Positions 2,904 through 39,239 of a DNA stretch of 39,239 bases are shown here, in pieces; the stretch's first letter is position 1, and every line of letters begins with the position of its first letter. Origin of the DNA: a virus. Where the stretch lies: positions 1 to 39,239 of the IMG/VR virus record IMGVR_UViG_3300031507_000021; one strand, given 5' to 3'. The notes under the pieces are model-generated. The model ran no database searches, was not told the origin of the DNA, and saw only the letters and a list, made by a program, of their open reading frames with translations. A program made the position numbers and the translations under genes.

Positions 2904-4193
2904 CTACCCCGCCACCACGGTTGCGGTGTTGAGCGGCGAATTGGTGACCGGAACTCCCATCGAGTCGAACGCCCCCACGGTGAGCACAGGCGTCTTGGTG
3001 GGGCCGTTGCCGAGCTGCACGAGGGAACCCTTGACGGCTGTGGTCCCCGTCGCCTCGATGCTCACCGTCGCGCCCTTGACGGTCGCCGCTGCCGTGGCTT
3101 CGACGGTGGCCGTCGCGCCCTTGATCTTGATCTCGCCATCGGACGTGAGTGTCATGGACGACGCCGCGAACTCCACCTGATCGGCGTTGGCTACCCACTT
3201 GAGCGCGCGATCTCCCGAGAAGCCACAGCACACATACGGGCCCTCGGGATTGCCACCGTCCCAGCCGAGCAGCACCGTCGAGCCCAGCGTGAACTGGATT
3301 TTCGCGCCGGTGCCGACGCGCACGGGCACGCGCTGCAGGCCACCGAGTCGCGCCTCGTTCCGACTCCCTATCGGGCGCACGTCGACGCTGGCCAAGTCGG
3401 TCGCCTGCGCCACCACCTCGCATAGGTAGGTAGCGTAGTAGTCGACGCCCGCGAGCGCCTGCTGGGCGATGGTCTGCGTCGCCGCGCTCGTGCCGCGCTC
3501 CTGGTCTGGGAAGTCTACCCACACCCGCGAACGCAGCCGGCCCGAGTCGATGGTGTCCATGACCTGGCCGACGTTGCCGACGTTCGCCAGGCTCGCGCCC
3601 GGCTCCACGAATGGCGACTCGACGCCAAGGAGATACGAGCCGTCGTTCGGGTCGCGATTCATCACGTCGAACGTTGCCGAGCTGGTGGGCCACGTCTCTT
3701 CGCCGATCCACAACTTGCCATCCGAGAGCATGCGCAAGCTCATTGCAGGCGCCACGATGTCGAGCAGCGCGCGCAGGTTCCGCCGCACGCTGTTGCCGCC
3801 GAAGACGCTCCACGCGGTGAGATTCTGTCCGAGGAAGGACGGCGCGATGGTGCTCGAGAGCGTTTCACCCGAGTCCTGGCAAAGGCTATTGAGGACGTCG
3901 CGCACGTAGGCGCCAGGCTGCACGAAGCTCCGCGGCGAGCTCGGCTTGCTCATGCCGCCGGCGCCGCCGATCACGCGCACGTGCATCGCGTCGAGGAAAT
4001 GGCCGGCGCGATTCGGGTCAACGACGCCGTGGAGCTCGTAGCCGGCATCGGCCTTGAGCGTGACCTTGGTGCCGGGGGCGAAGCCGGAGTCCTCGACCTG
4101 ATCGAGAATCAGATCTGCGAACCACACGCCGATGAGCGGGCGCAGTACGACGCCGCTCACCACCGCTACGCCGTTGGCCGTCACGAGCGCCAT
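2904..4193 (-). CDS. Baseplate hub/spike fusion protein
   Basis: A 429-residue protein; the ATG at 4193 overlaps the preceding TGA. An open frame continues further upstream but would run inside the neighbouring gene. The N-terminal 270 residues (VLNSLCQDSGET, SLRMLSDGKLWIG) look like a gpD/gp27-type hub. A middle segment with PVRVGTGAKIQFTLGS and VLLGWDGG resembles the OB-fold of gpV-type spikes. The C-terminal 90 residues are a repetitive series (IKIKGATATVEATA, VKGATVSIEATG, VKGSLVQLGNG), typical of the beta-helix of a puncturing needle. Combining hub, OB-fold and needle in one chain is compact; most P2- or Mu-like phages use separate proteins. Domain limits are estimates. Confidence 0.7.
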   Translation of the reverse strand: MALVTANGVAVVSGVVLRPLIGVWFADLILDQVEDSGFAPGTKVTLKADAGYELHGVVDPNRAGHFLDAMHVRVIGGAGGMSKPSSPRSFVQPGAYVRDVLNSLCQDSGETLSSTIAPSFLGQNLTAWSVFGGNSVRRNLRALLDIVAPAMSLRMLSDGKLWIGEETWPTSSATFDVMNRDPNDGSYLLGVESPFVEPGASLANVGNVGQVMDTIDSGRLRSRVWVDFPDQERGTSAATQTIAQQALAGVDYYATYLCEVVAQATDLASVDVRPIGSRNEARLGGLQRVPVRVGTGAKIQFTLGSTVLLGWDGGNPEGPYVCCGFSGDRALKWVANADQVEFAASSMTLTSDGEIKIKGATATVEATAAATVKGATVSIEATGTTAVKGSLVQLGNGPTKTPVLTVGAFDSMGVPVTNSPLNTATVVAG

Positions 4194-23271: not shown

Positions 23272-23499
23272 CTACGCGCGGTGACGTGCCCGCTTGCGCC
23301 TGATCTGCCCGCGCTTGCGAATCGGGATTTTCTCGACGGTGATCTGCCCGTCGCTCAATTCAATTAAACGCACTAGCGCAACCCCCTGCGGCACATTGCC
23401 ACGCCTCCACCGCGAGGGTTGCGAAGCGTCCACCCCGCAATGCGCGGCGATCTGTGCGTTGCTCAACGCCGTCACGCTGAGCCATTCGGGGATTGTCAT
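23272..23499 (-). CDS. Cro-like HTH repressor
   Basis: The protein has 75 residues. The segment LSNAQIAAHCGVDASQPSRW is a helix-turn-helix of Cro/YdaS type, where SQPSRW is the recognition helix; a basic tail follows (PIRKRGQIRRKRARHR). It is transcribed leftward and divergently from the repressor-like gene at 23653, the classic lysis-lysogeny arrangement. Two operator-like 14-mers lie in the 153 bases between them. I infer that it turns down the lysogenic promoter and opens the leftward lytic genes. Confidence 0.78.
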   Translation of the reverse strand: MTIPEWLSVTALSNAQIAAHCGVDASQPSRWRRGNVPQGVALVRLIELSDGQITVEKIPIRKRGQIRRKRARHRA

Positions 23500-23540
23500 T
23501 CACGAAGCCTTGTATAGACACAACGTACAAGTCAAGAACT

Positions 23541-23635
23541 TTGTGTTTATGCAAGGTCGCTCACGTCGGTGACACCTGGCAGATACGTTAGGTCCGTGAT
23601 TTAAACGTGCTTTGACGCTCACTGTATTTATGCAA
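23541..23635. promoter_or_regulatory. Divergent control region with two operator-like sites
   Basis: The interval between the Cro-like and repressor-like genes holds TTGTGTTTATGCAA (23541-23554) and CTGTATTTATGCAA (23622-23635). Both share the right half of the perfect dyad TTGCAT-TT-ATGCAA found at 24875. A TTGACG at 23612-23617 is a possible -35 for the rightward repressor transcript, with the second site falling in the spacer; the -10 is weak. TTGTA and TACAA (23510-23531) form a further partial dyad near the leftward start. Repressor/Cro binding here is inferred from position and repetition. Confidence 0.65.
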
Positions 23636-23652
23636 GTATCGACGTCACTCCG

Positions 23653-24108
23653 ATGCCAAAGCTCAAACCATTACGACAAATCGATCTGGAGCGATTCGCG
23701 CGGCTCCTCGATGAGGCTGAAATTATCCGAGCGGACTTGGCGAGATTCGGACAGGTAGACCCGTCACAGCCGACGCATTGGCTGAAGGGGAGCACAATCC
23801 CTTCTGGAGATCGGATCGAAGAGATATGCGTTCGGCTGAACTGCTCGCCGCCGTATCTCTTCGGACGTTCAGAGGAGGAGATCCGCCACTACCTCATCGG
23901 CACAGTGCGTCGCGAGCTCGGCGAGCTGGCCGCGAACGTCCTCGAGTTAACTTGTGCTCAGACGTTGCGACAAATCGACGCTATAGGGACGCGTGGGAGC
24001 TCTGCGCTTCATGTAGACGGACCATCATCTCGGCGAGTCCCTCACGATCGCCAGCGACAAGAACAGCCACTGCCCCGTGCGAGTAAGCGTCGGCGGTCTT
24101 CGCCATAG
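23653..24108 (+). CDS. CI-like HTH repressor, C-terminus overrun
   Basis: A 151-residue frame from ATG 23653, without a clear Shine-Dalgarno. The first 110 residues contain an HTH resembling the Cro-like protein opposite (FGQVDPSQPTHWLKG, with SQPTHW as recognition helix) and then CVRLNCSPPYLFGRSEEE. No peptidase (LexA-like) domain is present, so it is not a SOS-cleaved CI. The last 40 residues (RVPHDRQRQEQPLPRASK) are basic, low-complexity and antisense to the receiver-domain gene. They look like overrun after a recombination that replaced the original end. Probably the lysogeny repressor (inference). Confidence 0.65.
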   Translation: MPKLKPLRQIDLERFARLLDEAEIIRADLARFGQVDPSQPTHWLKGSTIPSGDRIEEICVRLNCSPPYLFGRSEEEIRHYLIGTVRRELGELAANVLELTCAQTLRQIDAIGTRGSSALHVDGPSSRRVPHDRQRQEQPLPRASKRRRSSP

Positions 24109-24349
24109 AACGCGTAGCGATAGTTGCAATGGTAGGTGTATTTTTGCACCTCTGACGAACGGCGTCGAGCAAGTGCATACCGCAGCGACCCTCGATGTCG
24201 ACCACGCAAACGTCGAACGGGCGCGCATTGACCGCGCCGTCAGCCTCGAGAACGTCCAGGACGTGCACCTCGTGTGTCCCTTTGAGGACGCTCGTTCCCC
24301 ACGATAAGAGCCCAAAGTCGCGACTTACGATCAGCACCCTCATCCGCAT
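23981..24349 (-). CDS. Stand-alone receiver (response-regulator-like) domain protein
   Basis: This 122-residue protein reads as a CheY-like receiver domain. Beta-1 is MRVLIVSRD, the phosphoacceptor candidate Asp51 is in VCVVDIEG, PTIATIATRS carries the conserved Thr/Ser position (Thr79), and GAVAVLVAGDREGLAEM holds the last strand and helix. The canonical Lys after beta-5 is replaced (VLVAG in place of a YLxKP-type motif), and the first acidic pair is reduced, so phosphorylation is doubtful. There is no output domain. It is convergent with the repressor gene, overlapping its last 128 bases. Receiver proteins in a phage immunity region are unusual. Function is unknown. Confidence 0.68.
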   Translation of the reverse strand: MRMRVLIVSRDFGLLSWGTSVLKGTHEVHVLDVLEADGAVNARPFDVCVVDIEGRCGMHLLDAVRQRCKNTPTIATIATRSMAKTADAYSHGAVAVLVAGDREGLAEMMVRLHEAQSSHASL

Positions 24350-24387
24350 ACGGTGTTCCCCCGCAGATACTGCGCCGAGGCGACAAA

Positions 24388-24410
24388 ATAACCGCCAGAC
24401 AGTCGGTTAT
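24388..24410. promoter_or_regulatory. Inverted repeat upstream of the receiver-domain gene
   Basis: ATAACCG (24388-24394) and CGGTTAT (24404-24410) are perfect 7-base arms around nine bases. The site lies 39 bases upstream of the receiver-gene ATG on the minus strand, within the gene-free stretch 24350-24554, and is a candidate operator. The rest of that stretch shows only scattered GGGAAA/TTTCC words and no clear promoter. Confidence 0.45.
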
Positions 24411-24554
24411 CCAGCGTAATCGGGAAATGTTTTTCCGCGCAGTTTCCTACCGTCAGCGTTGTAGGGCGCGCATGGCATATAGCGCCGGGGTAGTGGGAAA
24501 CACCTTCTCATGGATGGTTTTACGAATTAGAGACATGACTAGGCTCGCCTGCCG

Positions 24555-24821
24555 GTGGTGTCACTGGCAGATTGTCTGCGTTCCCTTGGCGCGAACATCA
24601 GCGCAACGCGTGCTAGCGCAGGGCTGACACAACAACAGCTCGCCGAGCGACTACAACTCAGCGTCAAGTTCATCCAACACATTGAGTCTGGACGCGGTGC
24701 GCCGTCACTCAAGACGCTCGTGGCAATCGCCACGGCTCTCCGAACAACTCCCGACCGTTTGCTAATACCAACACAAGCCCCTTCGCCGGTCCGCGGCCGT
24801 CCGCCTAAGCGCCGCGCTTAG
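24555..24821 (+). CDS. XRE-family HTH protein with AT-hook-like tail
   Basis: The protein has 88 residues from GTG 24555 (a second GTG follows at once). It holds a standard HTH_3 fold: ISATRASAGLTQQQLAERL, then LSVKFIQHIESGRGAPSLKT and LVAIATALRTTPDRLL. The C-terminus VRGRPPKRRA carries an RGRP core typical of AT-hooks, giving a second, minor-groove DNA contact. It is encoded rightward between the receiver gene and the main rightward operon, whose upstream region has two operator-like sites. I infer a second immunity or early regulator. Confidence 0.8.
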   Translation: MVSLADCLRSLGANISATRASAGLTQQQLAERLQLSVKFIQHIESGRGAPSLKTLVAIATALRTTPDRLLIPTQAPSPVRGRPPKRRA

Positions 24822-24874: not shown

Positions 24875-24923
24875 TTGCATTTATGCAACGATTGCTCTTG
24901 CAATCGTCGTTGTGTTTATGCAA
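24875..24923. promoter_or_regulatory. Operator pair and hairpin ahead of the rightward operon
   Basis: TTGCATTTATGCAA (24875-24888) is a perfect dyad and TTGTGTTTATGCAA (24910-24923) is identical to the site at 23541. Between them ACGATTGC-TCTT-GCAATCGT (24888-24907) is a perfect 8-bp hairpin. The three elements fill the 90-base gap before the first rightward gene, so one regulator probably controls both this operon and the divergent immunity promoters. This is inferred from repetition alone. Confidence 0.7.
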
Positions 24924-24932
24924 GATGTTTTT

Positions 24933-25181
24933 ATGACGACGCGATTGATGCTCCTAGGTCGCTACGCCTGCTCCGCGCATGGCTGCGTTGCTAAGACGGA
25001 AGGTTTCTACTGTGCGGCGCATCTCGAATTGTGCCCCGAGTGTGGCAACGAGACGGAACTCGGCACGCTAGTGGATGGCCGTTGTGACGACTGCGTGAAC
25101 GCGGCCTGCCGCCGCCCGGTGGATGATGGCGTGCGGTTCATTCAGGAGTGCATCTGTGGCCGTCACGCGGTGCGCTCGTGA
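24933..25181 (+). CDS. Small Cys-rich zinc-ribbon-like protein
   Basis: The product has 82 residues. ATG 24933 is preferred, because the in-frame GTG 24912 and ATG 24918 fall in the operator. Cysteines come as GRYACSAHGC, FYCAAHLELCPECG, DGRCDDCVNAAC and ECICGRHA, enough for two or three zinc sites. It is the first gene of the rightward operon. No family can be named; small zinc proteins in this position often act as regulators or host-takeover factors. Confidence 0.62.
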   Translation: MTTRLMLLGRYACSAHGCVAKTEGFYCAAHLELCPECGNETELGTLVDGRCDDCVNAACRRPVDDGVRFIQECICGRHAVRS

Positions 25182-32902: not shown

Positions 32903-33073
32903 ATGATTCGAGCGCGGCGATATGTGTGGGGGCGGCCGGTGCAGCGCGAGTACCTCACGCCCCGCGGCGATTTCGTCCGCGAGTACTGGACGGGTTATGG
33001 CCACCTGTATCGGACGGTGCAGCTCATGGCGAACGTCGAAGAGATCACCTTGACGGTGGGTCTATCGGCCTAG
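32903..33073 (+). CDS. Small protein of unknown function
   Basis: The product has 56 residues from ATG 32903, preceded by a GGGGGG run. MIRARRYVWGRPVQREYLTP with VREYWTGYGHLYRTV is basic and Tyr-rich, and no family is known. It lies beyond the int terminator, so it needs its own promoter. Its TAG at 33071-33073 shares CTAG with the stop of the opposing RTX lipoprotein gene. The isolated position suggests an accessory (moron) gene. Confidence 0.55.
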   Translation: MIRARRYVWGRPVQREYLTPRGDFVREYWTGYGHLYRTVQLMANVEEITLTVGLSA

Positions 33074-34134
33074 CACGTCGACTCGCACGCGGCCCCGATC
33101 GGCGTGCAGCAATCAACGCCCGTGCCGCCGCTCGACGCGCCCACGCCGGCATCTTGGAATAGGCGATCATTGCCCGAGCCACCGCCAAGCAGATCGTCTC
33201 CGTCGCCACCGTCGAGCGTGTCGTCGCCATTGCCGCCAAGCAGCACGTCGTCGCCCGAGCCACCGTCGAGCAAGTCGTTGCCGTCGCCGCCCTGGATGGT
33301 ATCCTCGTCGGCCTCGCCGAACAGACGATCGTCGCCCGCGCCGCCCTCAATCTCGTCAACTCCGACACCGCCATGCAGCTCGTCGAGGCCAGCGCCGCCG
33401 CTCACGAAGTCGTTGCCGCTCTCGGCATAGATCAGATCGTTGCCGTCGCCGCCAAAGAGCGAGTCGTCGCCAGGCCCGCCGTAAACCGTATCGTCACCCG
33501 CGCCAGCGTCGGATGCGTCGTTGCCTTCCTCGAGGAACAGCGTGTCATTGCCAGCGCCGCCGAGCACGAGATCGTCGCCCCCGCCGGTATAGATGACGTC
33601 GTCACCTTCGCCAGCGTCGACGGCATCGGCCCCGCCGAGCAGGATCACAATGTCGTCACCGGGGCCAGCCAGCACGAGATCGTGTCCGCCGCGACCGATG
33701 ATCGTATCGTCCCCCTGTAGGCCCACGAAGCAATCGTCGGCCCCAGTTCCGACGAGCACGTCGTTGCCGGCGGTACCCGTGATCACGACATAACCCGGCG
33801 GGCACGAGGTGGGGATTTGCGGCGTCGGCGTGCATTGCGGCGTGGGAATGTCGGGCGGCGGTGGGGGCGGTGGCGTCGCCATATCGGCGAGCGGCGGCGT
33901 GGCCATGTCGACAACGGGCGGCGTGGCCATGTCGGCAGGCGGCGCAGGGCACATGTCTCGCGGCGGCGGGTGGTGGTGCGAGGCGAGGATCGCTTGCGCC
34001 TCGCGCACGCGCGCCGTCTCAGCGGAGCTCAGCGGAGCCGAGGAGACACTACCTACCGCGTCGCCGCCAAGATCGCCAGGCGTGCAGGCGGCGAGCGCAA
34101 GCGCACACGGAATCACGAAGCGGATGCGTTGCAT
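33070..34134 (-). CDS. RTX-repeat lipoprotein (accessory 'moron' gene)
   Basis: A 354-residue protein whose ATG at 34134 has AGAGAGGT upstream. The signal peptide ends in a lipobox (MQRIRFVIPCALALAAC, Leu-Ala-Ala-Cys), so it is lipid-anchored outside the cytoplasm. A linker follows with three DMATPP units and a Pro run. Then come about 23 consecutive nine-residue RTX units (GDDTLDGGD, GNDLLDGGS and variants), which in other proteins fold as a Ca2+-bound beta-roll. The C-terminus has a Cys pair (VDCCTP). Such surface lipoproteins are normal for Myxococcota chromosomes but not for phage virions. I infer lysogenic conversion, perhaps surface masking or superinfection exclusion. It lies downstream of the fibre block with 83 bases between. 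Confidence 0.85.
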   Translation of the reverse strand: MQRIRFVIPCALALAACTPGDLGGDAVGSVSSAPLSSAETARVREAQAILASHHHPPPRDMCPAPPADMATPPVVDMATPPLADMATPPPPPPPDIPTPQCTPTPQIPTSCPPGYVVITGTAGNDVLVGTGADDCFVGLQGDDTIIGRGGHDLVLAGPGDDIVILLGGADAVDAGEGDDVIYTGGGDDLVLGGAGNDTLFLEEGNDASDAGAGDDTVYGGPGDDSLFGGDGNDLIYAESGNDFVSGGAGLDELHGGVGVDEIEGGAGDDRLFGEADEDTIQGGDGNDLLDGGSGDDVLLGGNGDDTLDGGDGDDLLGGGSGNDRLFQDAGVGASSGGTGVDCCTPIGAACESTC

Positions 34135-36967: not shown

Positions 36968-37522
36968 TTGAACGCTCACACTGTCGTCATCCTCGTTCTG
37001 CTCGCCGCTGGCTGCACGCCCGAGCCCGCGCCAACTGCCCCGCATGATATGGGCGGTGACATGGCGGGTAGCCTGGCGATCGGAGACCTGGCTCGAGTCC
37101 TGGGCGACATGACGCCAGCCACGTGTGCGTGGGACGCATCGACGCCGCCAATATCCACTGGCACGATGCCCATCTCTTCGGCGTACGTGCTCGGCGCGCA
37201 GCAATGCATGGTCCTCGCCGACGCCCTCTACATCGATCGTCGGCGCGACGATCGTACTGAGGAGCAACTCTATTTCTACCCGCAGACAGCCACAGCGAAC
37301 GGGATTCGCGTGTTCTATCGGTCGATCGGCGACGGGAAGACCCTCCCTGAGATCACGTGCGAGCAATGGAACGGAACAGCGACGATCACCGCCACGCCCG
37401 CCGGCCGACGCGTCACGGTCGATCTGCAATGCTCCGAGATCAACGCCGGTCACCATTTTTGGACACTCGACATGACGCCACCGATCACGCTCGTGCGCGG
37501 TACCTTCGATTTTCCCAACTAG
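36968..37522 (+). CDS. Lipoprotein of unknown function
   Basis: The product has 184 residues from TTG 36968, chosen because GGAGG (36958-36962) stands five bases upstream. MNAHTVVILVLLAAGCTPEP is a signal peptide with the lipobox Leu-Ala-Ala-Gly-Cys or an equivalent. The mature part has MGGDMAGSLAIGDLARVLGD and a beta-rich C-terminal domain (EEQLYFYPQTATANGI, WNGTATITATPAGRRV) with a few cysteines. It follows the Cys-rich lipoprotein in one short operon. Its TAG shares CTAG (37519-37522) with the opposing fibre stop. Confidence 0.72.
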   Translation: MNAHTVVILVLLAAGCTPEPAPTAPHDMGGDMAGSLAIGDLARVLGDMTPATCAWDASTPPISTGTMPISSAYVLGAQQCMVLADALYIDRRRDDRTEEQLYFYPQTATANGIRVFYRSIGDGKTLPEITCEQWNGTATITATPAGRRVTVDLQCSEINAGHHFWTLDMTPPITLVRGTFDFPN

Positions 37523-38808
37523 AGTACCGGCACGGAGAGCTCGTAGTTGGCGCTGATGAATAGCGGCCCCACGAACTGCGTATTATCGGTGACTGATGGG
37601 CTCGCCGCGATCTTCTGACCAAACGTGAACTTCAGCGCCGTAGTGGGCAGATTAGTCGTAATGGTGGCCGCGAGGGCGCCATTGATAAAGAACCTAGCGC
37701 ATGGGCCAGTAGGAGCGGCTGAGCCCACCAACTCAATACCGAATCTCGTTGTATTCGTCGTCGCAGCGATGCCGCTATCGACCGTGGTGGTAACTGTTGC
37801 CGCCATCGCATTGCACTGCCAATTCGCCTGACCGGAGGCGCGACTAAAAGACACCCCATCGGTAAAAGCATTGACGACAGACACCCAGCGATTGCGGCTT
37901 GGTTGGTTCCCGCCGCCCATGCCGGCATATTGGGTGCAATTTGTAACGCCAACAGAATTGATTTTCCCATACCAGTTGAATGCCAGCGTTACCCCAGAAT
38001 GGGGGAATATCATGCAAGCATATTGCCCTAACCAAGCATCGGCCGTGGCGCCTGTCGAGGGTAGAACAGATGCCGATGAAAATGGAAACAGCGACGATGC
38101 GTCGAGTCCCAATTGATACGTGGCGCCTGTTCCTGGTACTGAAATATCAAACACCCAAGATGGGGCGACGGGAATCGGAACAACCGGGGCAGATACTGAA
38201 CCAACAACCCCGGTAGGATTTGGCCAATACTCCTTGTAGAGCAGGTTCCTTGAGTTGTAGTACCCGTTGTGATCGACCGCAGATCGAGCGTTGCCCGCCG
38301 GATCGTTCCATTGCGCCAGCGGCGTAAACGCGGAGCGAAACGTCGCCGTACCCAACGCGGTGAGCGTCCCGACGAACGCAAGCGTGATTCCGCTCGTCGC
38401 GTCCACCATGCTCGCGGCCGTCGTTTGCGTCGCGCCGTAGGTGGCGCCGCCGTCGATCGACGTCTTGAACGTCGCCACGCCCACCGCGCCGCCCGCCTGA
38501 ATCTGCACGACGAACCGCGTGCCGTCGGCGATATGCGCCGAGCCCGATGGCGTGACGGTGCCTCCGAAGGTGAGAAGCACTGGGTTCGTGAACCCGCTCG
38601 CGGTCGCATTGAGCACGGGCAGCTCCGGCCGCGACGACGCCATGATGTGCCCGATAAAGTCCGCGGGAACCATCATGGCCTGGGCTACGCTGGCTGCATT
38701 TGCAGCATCGCCATCGGACGGCAGCACGACGACAGGAATTGCGCCGGGAGCTGGTGCCGGCGAGGGCGTGCGGGCGGCAGTTGGGCTGCCTGTGTAGTTC
38801 GACGGCAC
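37519..38808 (-). CDS. Tail fibre / receptor-binding protein
   Basis: This 429-residue protein starts at GTG 38808, which overlaps the TAG of gpI (TAGTG); the open frame above it lies inside gpI. After a Pro/Ala-rich start, MMVPADFIGHIMASS precedes a beta module (GVATFKTSIDGGATYG, then GITLAFVGTLTALG) like those in sheath and gpJ. The C-terminal 220 residues (FDISVPGTGATYQLGLDASS, FGIELVGSAAPTGPCARFF) look like a lectin-type tip. Base composition falls noticeably in that half, a sign of separate origin. Its place directly after gpI, as in P2/Mu-type phages, supports host recognition. Confidence 0.8.
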   Translation of the reverse strand: MPSNYTGSPTAARTPSPAPAPGAIPVVVLPSDGDAANAASVAQAMMVPADFIGHIMASSRPELPVLNATASGFTNPVLLTFGGTVTPSGSAHIADGTRFVVQIQAGGAVGVATFKTSIDGGATYGATQTTAASMVDATSGITLAFVGTLTALGTATFRSAFTPLAQWNDPAGNARSAVDHNGYYNSRNLLYKEYWPNPTGVVGSVSAPVVPIPVAPSWVFDISVPGTGATYQLGLDASSLFPFSSASVLPSTGATADAWLGQYACMIFPHSGVTLAFNWYGKINSVGVTNCTQYAGMGGGNQPSRNRWVSVVNAFTDGVSFSRASGQANWQCNAMAATVTTTVDSGIAATTNTTRFGIELVGSAAPTGPCARFFINGALAATITTNLPTTALKFTFGQKIAASPSVTDNTQFVGPLFISANYELSVPVL

Positions 38809-39239
38809 TAGAACACCCCCAATAGTTGCGTGACTGAACCACCCCACAGATGCCCGTCGCCCCATTTTAGGGCCGCGGGATAACCCCACGTACTCCCCGA
38901 TGCGATAGAGGAGACGCTCATGCACAGGGCGTTGGGGCGAAACGTGATGATGATGCGCTTGATCGCACCGGGCGATGCGACGGTGAAGACGTTGAAAGGA
39001 TCGACGCCGGTGGCATACGCGATCACGGCAACCGAGCCTGACCACGCGGCGGTGGATTGCAGCGTAATGCCCGAAGTCGTCTTACTCGCGCCGTCGATCG
39101 TGATGATGACGGAATCCGACGGCACGCCCACGAGCACGTGGTAACTGGTATCGGCGAACACGAGCGGCCAGGTGATAGTGGCGGTGTCGGAATTGACGAA
39201 GTTCGCCGTCGTGATGGACGAGAACGTCCATGTCGGCAT
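38808..39239 (-). CDS. gpI-like baseplate/tail protein, C-terminal part (joins 513..1)
   Basis: 143 codons ending with TAG at 38810-38808. The frame begins with an ATG at the very last base of the window, but it continues in phase from the 171 codons ending at base 1. I therefore read it as the rest of gpI. The first 75 residues (NSDTATITWPLVFADTSYHV, GSVAVIAYATG) resemble the free module at 36257-36493. The last 65 residues (GAIKRIIITFRPN, STWGYPAALKWGDGHLWGG) match the conserved end of gpI-type tail proteins. Confidence 0.75.
   Translation of the reverse strand: MPTWTFSSITTANFVNSDTATITWPLVFADTSYHVLVGVPSDSVIITIDGASKTTSGITLQSTAAWSGSVAVIAYATGVDPFNVFTVASPGAIKRIIITFRPNALCMSVSSIASGSTWGYPAALKWGDGHLWGGSVTQLLGVF

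Follow-up and report, generated by a model that had tools for sequence, protein, structure and literature searches.

A pseudo-receiver gene beside the CI-like repressor gene in the immunity region of a phage

Regulators and dyads of the immunity region

In the window, a single virus record of 39,239 bases taken whole, a cro-like gene (23272–23499, minus strand), three dyads, a cI-like gene (23653–24108, plus strand), a gene for a receiver-like protein (23981–24349, minus strand), an xre gene (24555–24821, plus strand) and two further dyads follow one another, ahead of an early operon. The CI-like HTH repressor (151 residues) matches HTH_3 (E 5e-4) and the phage repressor families phrog_8 and phrog_4, and also DicA, weakly; no peptidase domain is matched in it by Pfam. 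The Cro-like protein, encoded divergently from it, is a small HTH protein of 75 residues, which matches the CII-like family phrog_3638 and, weakly, DicC. The recognition helix is common to these two proteins (11 of 26 residues identical, pairwise E 1e-4, pattern VD-SQP--W--G), and they have the pattern of a putative CI/Cro pair; a divergent repressor-like pair with repeated dyads between the genes is the layout of a CI/Cro immunity region. The XRE-type protein (88 residues, HTH_3 E 3e-14), whose gene is divergent from the receiver gene, gave no alignment with the CI-like protein and is therefore taken as a separate regulator. An earlier, sequence-only reading had located a receiver-domain protein inside the phage immunity region, between a repressor-like gene and an XRE gene and convergent with the former. 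The location is supported by the CI-like/Cro-like pair and the repeated dyads, the placement between the two genes is confirmed, and the convergence takes the form of a tail-to-tail overlap of 128 bp.

The dyads occupy two gaps, three of them lying between the cro-like and cI-like genes and two between xre and the rightward early genes. The consensus, TTGYRTTTATGCAA, was derived from the five sites themselves. It is matched exactly at 23541–23554, at 24875–24888, which is a perfect palindrome (TTGCAT-TT-ATGCAA), and at 24910–24923, with one mismatch at 23622–23635 (all on the plus strand) and with two mismatches at 23510–23523 (minus strand). When up to two mismatches are allowed, these five are the places found in the window, and 20 Markov controls have none or one each. 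The short core TTTATGCAA does not stand out in this way: with no more than one mismatch allowed over the whole window, it is observed 4 times where 1.5 are expected, and 7 of 100 shuffles reach 4. We infer that the CI-like/Cro-like pair binds these dyads as its operators. Immediately ahead of the early genes, in the stretch 24875–24933, there is an 8-bp hairpin with a dyad on either side. This hairpin, 3' of the XRE gene (24888–24907, plus strand), is a possible terminator, with terminator-like sites in the region being no more frequent than by chance. The listed start of the first early reading frame (GTG at 24912) falls inside a dyad, and therefore the true start is probably the downstream ATG at 24933.

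Promoter and terminator scans of the region gave results at the level of chance. A search for hairpin terminators gave none for leftward transcripts in 23401–23990 and none for rightward cI transcripts ahead of xre in 24101–24560. Each transcript would therefore be antisense to the other gene.

The window has no repeats at its ends, and no Rfam families or tRNAs were matched in it. Its leftward genes (terminase, portal, protease, tail sheath, baseplate) and its rightward genes (RecT, exonuclease, dUTPase, tyrosine integrase) are the content from which we read it as a temperate contractile-tailed phage. The closest relatives of its terminase, found in MAGs, in uncultivated contigs and in phages from many phyla, do not single out the Myxococcota host assumed in the sequence-only reading. 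That the right end (33–39 kb) is host DNA was considered and rejected, at least for the last gene: in the relative L200 (5319–7502) a homologue of the right-end gene (37519–39045) follows a homologue of the left-end gene (1–513), and therefore the window looks like permuted phage DNA, perhaps a circular or near-complete phage genome. Among the likely tail-end genes there is one (33070–34134, minus strand) for an RTX-type calcium-binding nonapeptide repeat protein with 10 repeat stretches (PF00353, E 1e-51), which could be a tail or adhesion protein.

Fold and active site of the receiver-like protein

The gene at 23981–24349 is an intact ATG-to-stop frame of 122 codons. Its codon usage is neutral (-0.07 bits per codon), the antisense +0 frame scores -0.03 bits per codon but contains 3 stops, and the coding statistics do not decide between the strands. 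The description of the product as a stand-alone, CheY-like protein is upheld by a profile match that is weak and yet well above chance. Pfam PF00072 gives 19.7 bits (E 1e-3), which does not reach the curated cut-off of 30.2. The best matches in the PDB are receivers, FleR (E 0.0014) and RssB (E 0.0045), and the best in NCBIfam is RssB (E 0.0068), with TctD and LuxO, and also carbamate kinase (E 0.05), among the further matches. A profile of our own was made from 25 bacterial receivers of three genomes, after 5 of the 30 family loci, cut by contig ends, had been dropped. It scores the protein at 24.5–25.0 bits, whereas the maximum of 2000 residue shuffles is 7.9 bits and the next best of the 378 six-frame stretches of at least 60 residues in the window reaches 2.7 bits.

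The structure predictions are in agreement with these matches. AlphaFold gave no good model from the single sequence (pLDDT 36.8); when 15 other sequences, receivers or receiver-like, were supplied as an alignment, it gave a model at pLDDT 90.3 that has the (βα)5 fold of receivers. This model superimposes on 2qxy_A with a Z score of 18.3 and an rmsd of 1.7 over 115 residues, and the best 50 matches of each of Foldseek and VIA-align are all receivers or receiver-bearing chains. Since the input alignment leans to this fold and biases the model, the model is to be taken as consistency, not as proof. The reading frame is real, and its product is a protein of predicted receiver fold.

Most residues of the phosphorylation site are not retained when they are compared with those of the 25 receivers, in all of which five active-site positions are conserved or conservatively replaced. 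Asp51 is kept, as had been noted earlier, and aligns with Asp in 25 of 25. The lysine after β5 is lost, also as noted, being Ala99 in place of a residue that is Lys in every one of the 25. The acidic metal-binding pair, of which the first position is Asp or Glu and the second Asp in all 25 references, is replaced by Ser9 and Arg10, and the switch threonine (Thr or Ser, 25/25) by Ile77. Four of the five positions are thus lost and only Asp51 is left. Outside these positions, the proline at D+4 in the β3–α3 loop (Met-Pro) is deleted together with its neighbour, the tyrosine at K-3 is Val96, and the small residue at T+1 is kept (Ala78). The sequence-only reading, which had named the lysine as lost, understated the apparent decay: the acidic pair, the threonine and the Met-Pro loop are also gone. 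A pseudo-receiver is defined as a computationally identified receiver without key phosphotransfer residues, and the lost positions are described as serving metal and phosphoryl binding and coupling, in the text of a 2025 review (PMC12632262). By this definition the protein, its Pfam match lying under the curated cut-off, is a predicted pseudo-receiver.

Because both metal-binding acids, the threonine and the lysine are gone, phosphotransfer from a host kinase is unlikely. Control of lysogeny through phosphorylation of Asp51 by a host kinase would be in keeping with the retained Asp51 and the small residue at T+1, and is nevertheless highly improbable given the replacement of both acidic ligands, the threonine and the lysine, the deletion of the proline at D+4 and the loss of the tyrosine at K-3. 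Of the earlier interpretation, the stand-alone receiver-like protein in the immunity region therefore stands, and the sensing of a host kinase by phosphotransfer is disfavoured, Ser9/Arg10, Ile77 and Ala99 being in the places of required residues. Binding of another protein, rather than a phospho-switch, would likely be the mode of action of this pseudo-receiver.

It is possible that the partner is a host protein. The pseudo-receiver may bind, unphosphorylated, a host kinase, a response regulator or a receiver-binding adaptor as a decoy or heterodimer partner, and would then alter the behaviour of the host during lysogeny or infection. This is in line with the receiver fold extending over the full length of the model, with the RssB and FleR receivers being the best single-sequence relatives, and with pseudo-receivers acting via protein partners, as described in the text of PMC12632262. 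However, the protein has no close match to one host regulator, the best identities being about 30%, and the gene lies between the operator clusters beside the switch genes, not in a cargo region; we rate this reading as somewhat unlikely.

The loss of most catalytic residues could also mean that a host receiver gene was captured recently, now serves no function and is decaying. The absence of relatives among the sampled phages (see below) and the G+C content around 23.4–25.2 kb, which at 0.56–0.60 is below that of most of the phage, are compatible with such an origin. The lower G+C is, however, common to the receiver gene and the adjacent regulator genes, the frame is intact with a start codon and GGGGGAA before the ATG, and the hydrophobic core pattern is retained, with a pLDDT of 90 when a receiver alignment is used. 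A gene in decay is accordingly judged to be quite unlikely.

Relatives and other phage receivers

Close relatives of the pseudo-receiver, as sought with exact short peptide patterns, are found neither in IMG/VR nor in the GTDB species genomes. In 50,697 phage records there is no relative even at E 10, and plasmids are matched only at E 0.7 or worse. At E ≤ 0.01 the query matches five places in 4 of 16 genomes; four of these are receivers and one is, by our own reading of its translation, a HisF-like barrel. Neither PF00072 nor the pseudo-receiver is matched in any of 50 terminase-related viral records, which were drawn from 80 fetched loci and exclude 27 contigs under 10 kb as well as L078, L079 and L080. 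In the fetched stretches of all 80 loci, no receiver is found with our own profile at E 0.01 and no match to the pseudo-receiver at E 1e-3. Little weight attaches to this absence, since these loci contain no counterparts of the window's early genes. The late-gene relatives L002 (terminase 87% identical), L003, L004 and L006 have no counterpart of the region around the pseudo-receiver gene. Searches of IMG/VR with the CI-like protein, RecT and the exonuclease gave no relatives, the helicase query gave two contigs that both end before the region, and the XRE query gave two distant contigs in which our receiver profile finds nothing near the score of the pseudo-receiver.

Receivers are encoded by other phages. 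Several phage proteins in BFVD are named response regulator or CheY, and CDS-30 of Alteromonas phage V22 is a CheY-like or response regulator protein described as the product of an auxiliary gene rather than of a gene for immunity. Many receiver matches in the phage collection fall, by our own reading, in records that resemble host DNA. The stand-alone receivers of the viral contigs L205, L210 and L217 keep the acidic pair, the Asp and the Lys, unlike the protein described here. Nearest to it in style among the fetched loci is a receiver-like protein with a degenerate pocket and a short loop in L141 (18908–19264), which we take to resemble FlbD-type regulators. In the phage-classed contigs L203 and L204 (about 2983–3681), a canonical receiver is followed by repeated hydrophobic segments, an unusual receiver–membrane fusion. 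Phage-borne receivers as such are therefore not new; what is new here is that a predicted pseudo-receiver is encoded within the switch region of a phage. A receiver of a phage immunity region is not among the literature matches listed, several of the queries being broad, so that a report may exist.

The bacterial pseudo-receivers of PMC12632262 share with this protein the profile-recognised receiver fold and the missing key phosphotransfer residues. It differs from them in being phage-borne and stand-alone, in the shortened β3–α3 loop and in the location of its gene among immunity genes; the main text of that review makes no use of the words phage, prophage or virus.

A possible input to the lysis–lysogeny switch

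The arrangement of the region has two known counterparts. In phage lambda, rexA and rexB lie between the operator clusters beside cI and are co-transcribed with it. The likeness of the window to lambda includes the divergent CI-like and Cro-like genes, the three dyads between them and the second dyad cluster before the other early operon; the difference is that a convergent pseudo-receiver gene and xre are found in place of rexAB. A gene that lies between two candidate operator clusters and adjoins the CI-like gene, like rexA and rexB, might be lysogenic cargo that the lysogen expresses to exclude superinfecting phages or to defend itself in another way. The gene runs against cI, however, and is thus not co-transcribed with it as rex is, and the pseudo-receiver has no match among the PADLOC defence families, so that we hold cargo of this kind to be unlikely.

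The second counterpart is the TF–smORF module, as described in the text of PMC10432266 for VqmA–Qtip of VP882, TF72–smORF72 and the XRE–LuxR–smORF of Aeromonas phages. There, a transcription factor (an XRE protein in some) switches on a small gene that is transcribed away from its own, and the encoded product inactivates cI non-proteolytically. Like these modules, the window has a cI-type repressor and a regulator gene that diverges from a small gene lacking close relatives; the published smORFs are without homologues in the same account. An A. popoffii smORF is about 150 nt upstream of xre (PMC10432266), and here 205 bp separate the divergent starts. The divergent layout is thus present; activation of the small gene and inactivation of cI would, by analogy, be the corresponding functions here. 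Several features are unlike those reported in PMC10432266. No peptidase domain is matched in the CI-like protein of the window. The published loci are located between repA and telN, or close to par, in phages that are linear and plasmid-like, while this phage has an integrase. Two published smORFs, of 171 and 156 nt, are given there as having no predictable domains, whereas the protein here has 122 residues and a predicted receiver fold, a difference that is counted against the antirepressor explanation given below.

The position of the gene, divergent from xre and between the operator clusters, suggests an input module of the lysis–lysogeny decision, and the best explanation is a small protein controlled by XRE that acts against the CI-like repressor; it is put forward tentatively, as possible rather than probable. 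In such a module the receiver fold would be retained as a binding scaffold and not as a phospho-switch. The XRE protein would switch on the receiver-like gene, and the pseudo-receiver would bind the CI-like repressor without proteolysis and so tip the prophage into lysis. An antirepressor would be useful, since the CI-like protein has no matched peptidase domain. Leftward transcription of the receiver gene would continue antisense across the CI-like gene in the direction of the Cro-like gene and so strengthen the switch, in line with the leftward terminator search, which gave none in 23401–23990; rightward transcription of cI would likewise cross the receiver gene antisense and reach xre. The relationship to receivers, the lost phosphorylation residues, the order of the genes and the repeated dyads are observed, while we infer the activation by XRE, the binding of the repressor and the antisense effects.

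The receiver and XRE genes diverge from an intergenic region of 205 bp (24350–24554). Counted against this antirepressor explanation are that no XRE site is demonstrable in this region, that the sigma-70 scan found no promoter and that the codon usage of the receiver gene is neutral. The region does contain a 7+7 inverted repeat (ATAACCG/CGGTTAT) and GGAAA-N4-TTTCC; its palindromes are at the level of chance, as 13% of shuffles reach the observed longest arm and 26% the observed number. The more specific proposal, in which the XRE-controlled pseudo-receiver is a phosphorylation-independent antirepressor that binds the CI-like protein and the mutually antisense arrangement forms a lysis–lysogeny input of a kind absent from the literature matches listed, is on present evidence doubtful.

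The 2025 review (PMC12632262) calls the switching of bacterial pseudo-receivers a mystery, and according to PMC10432266 it has been difficult to find the stimuli that induce prophages independently of SOS. Here, a predicted single-domain pseudo-receiver of 122 residues is encoded beside one candidate target, the CI-like protein, and one candidate controller, the XRE protein, so that a small reporter system would give access to both questions.
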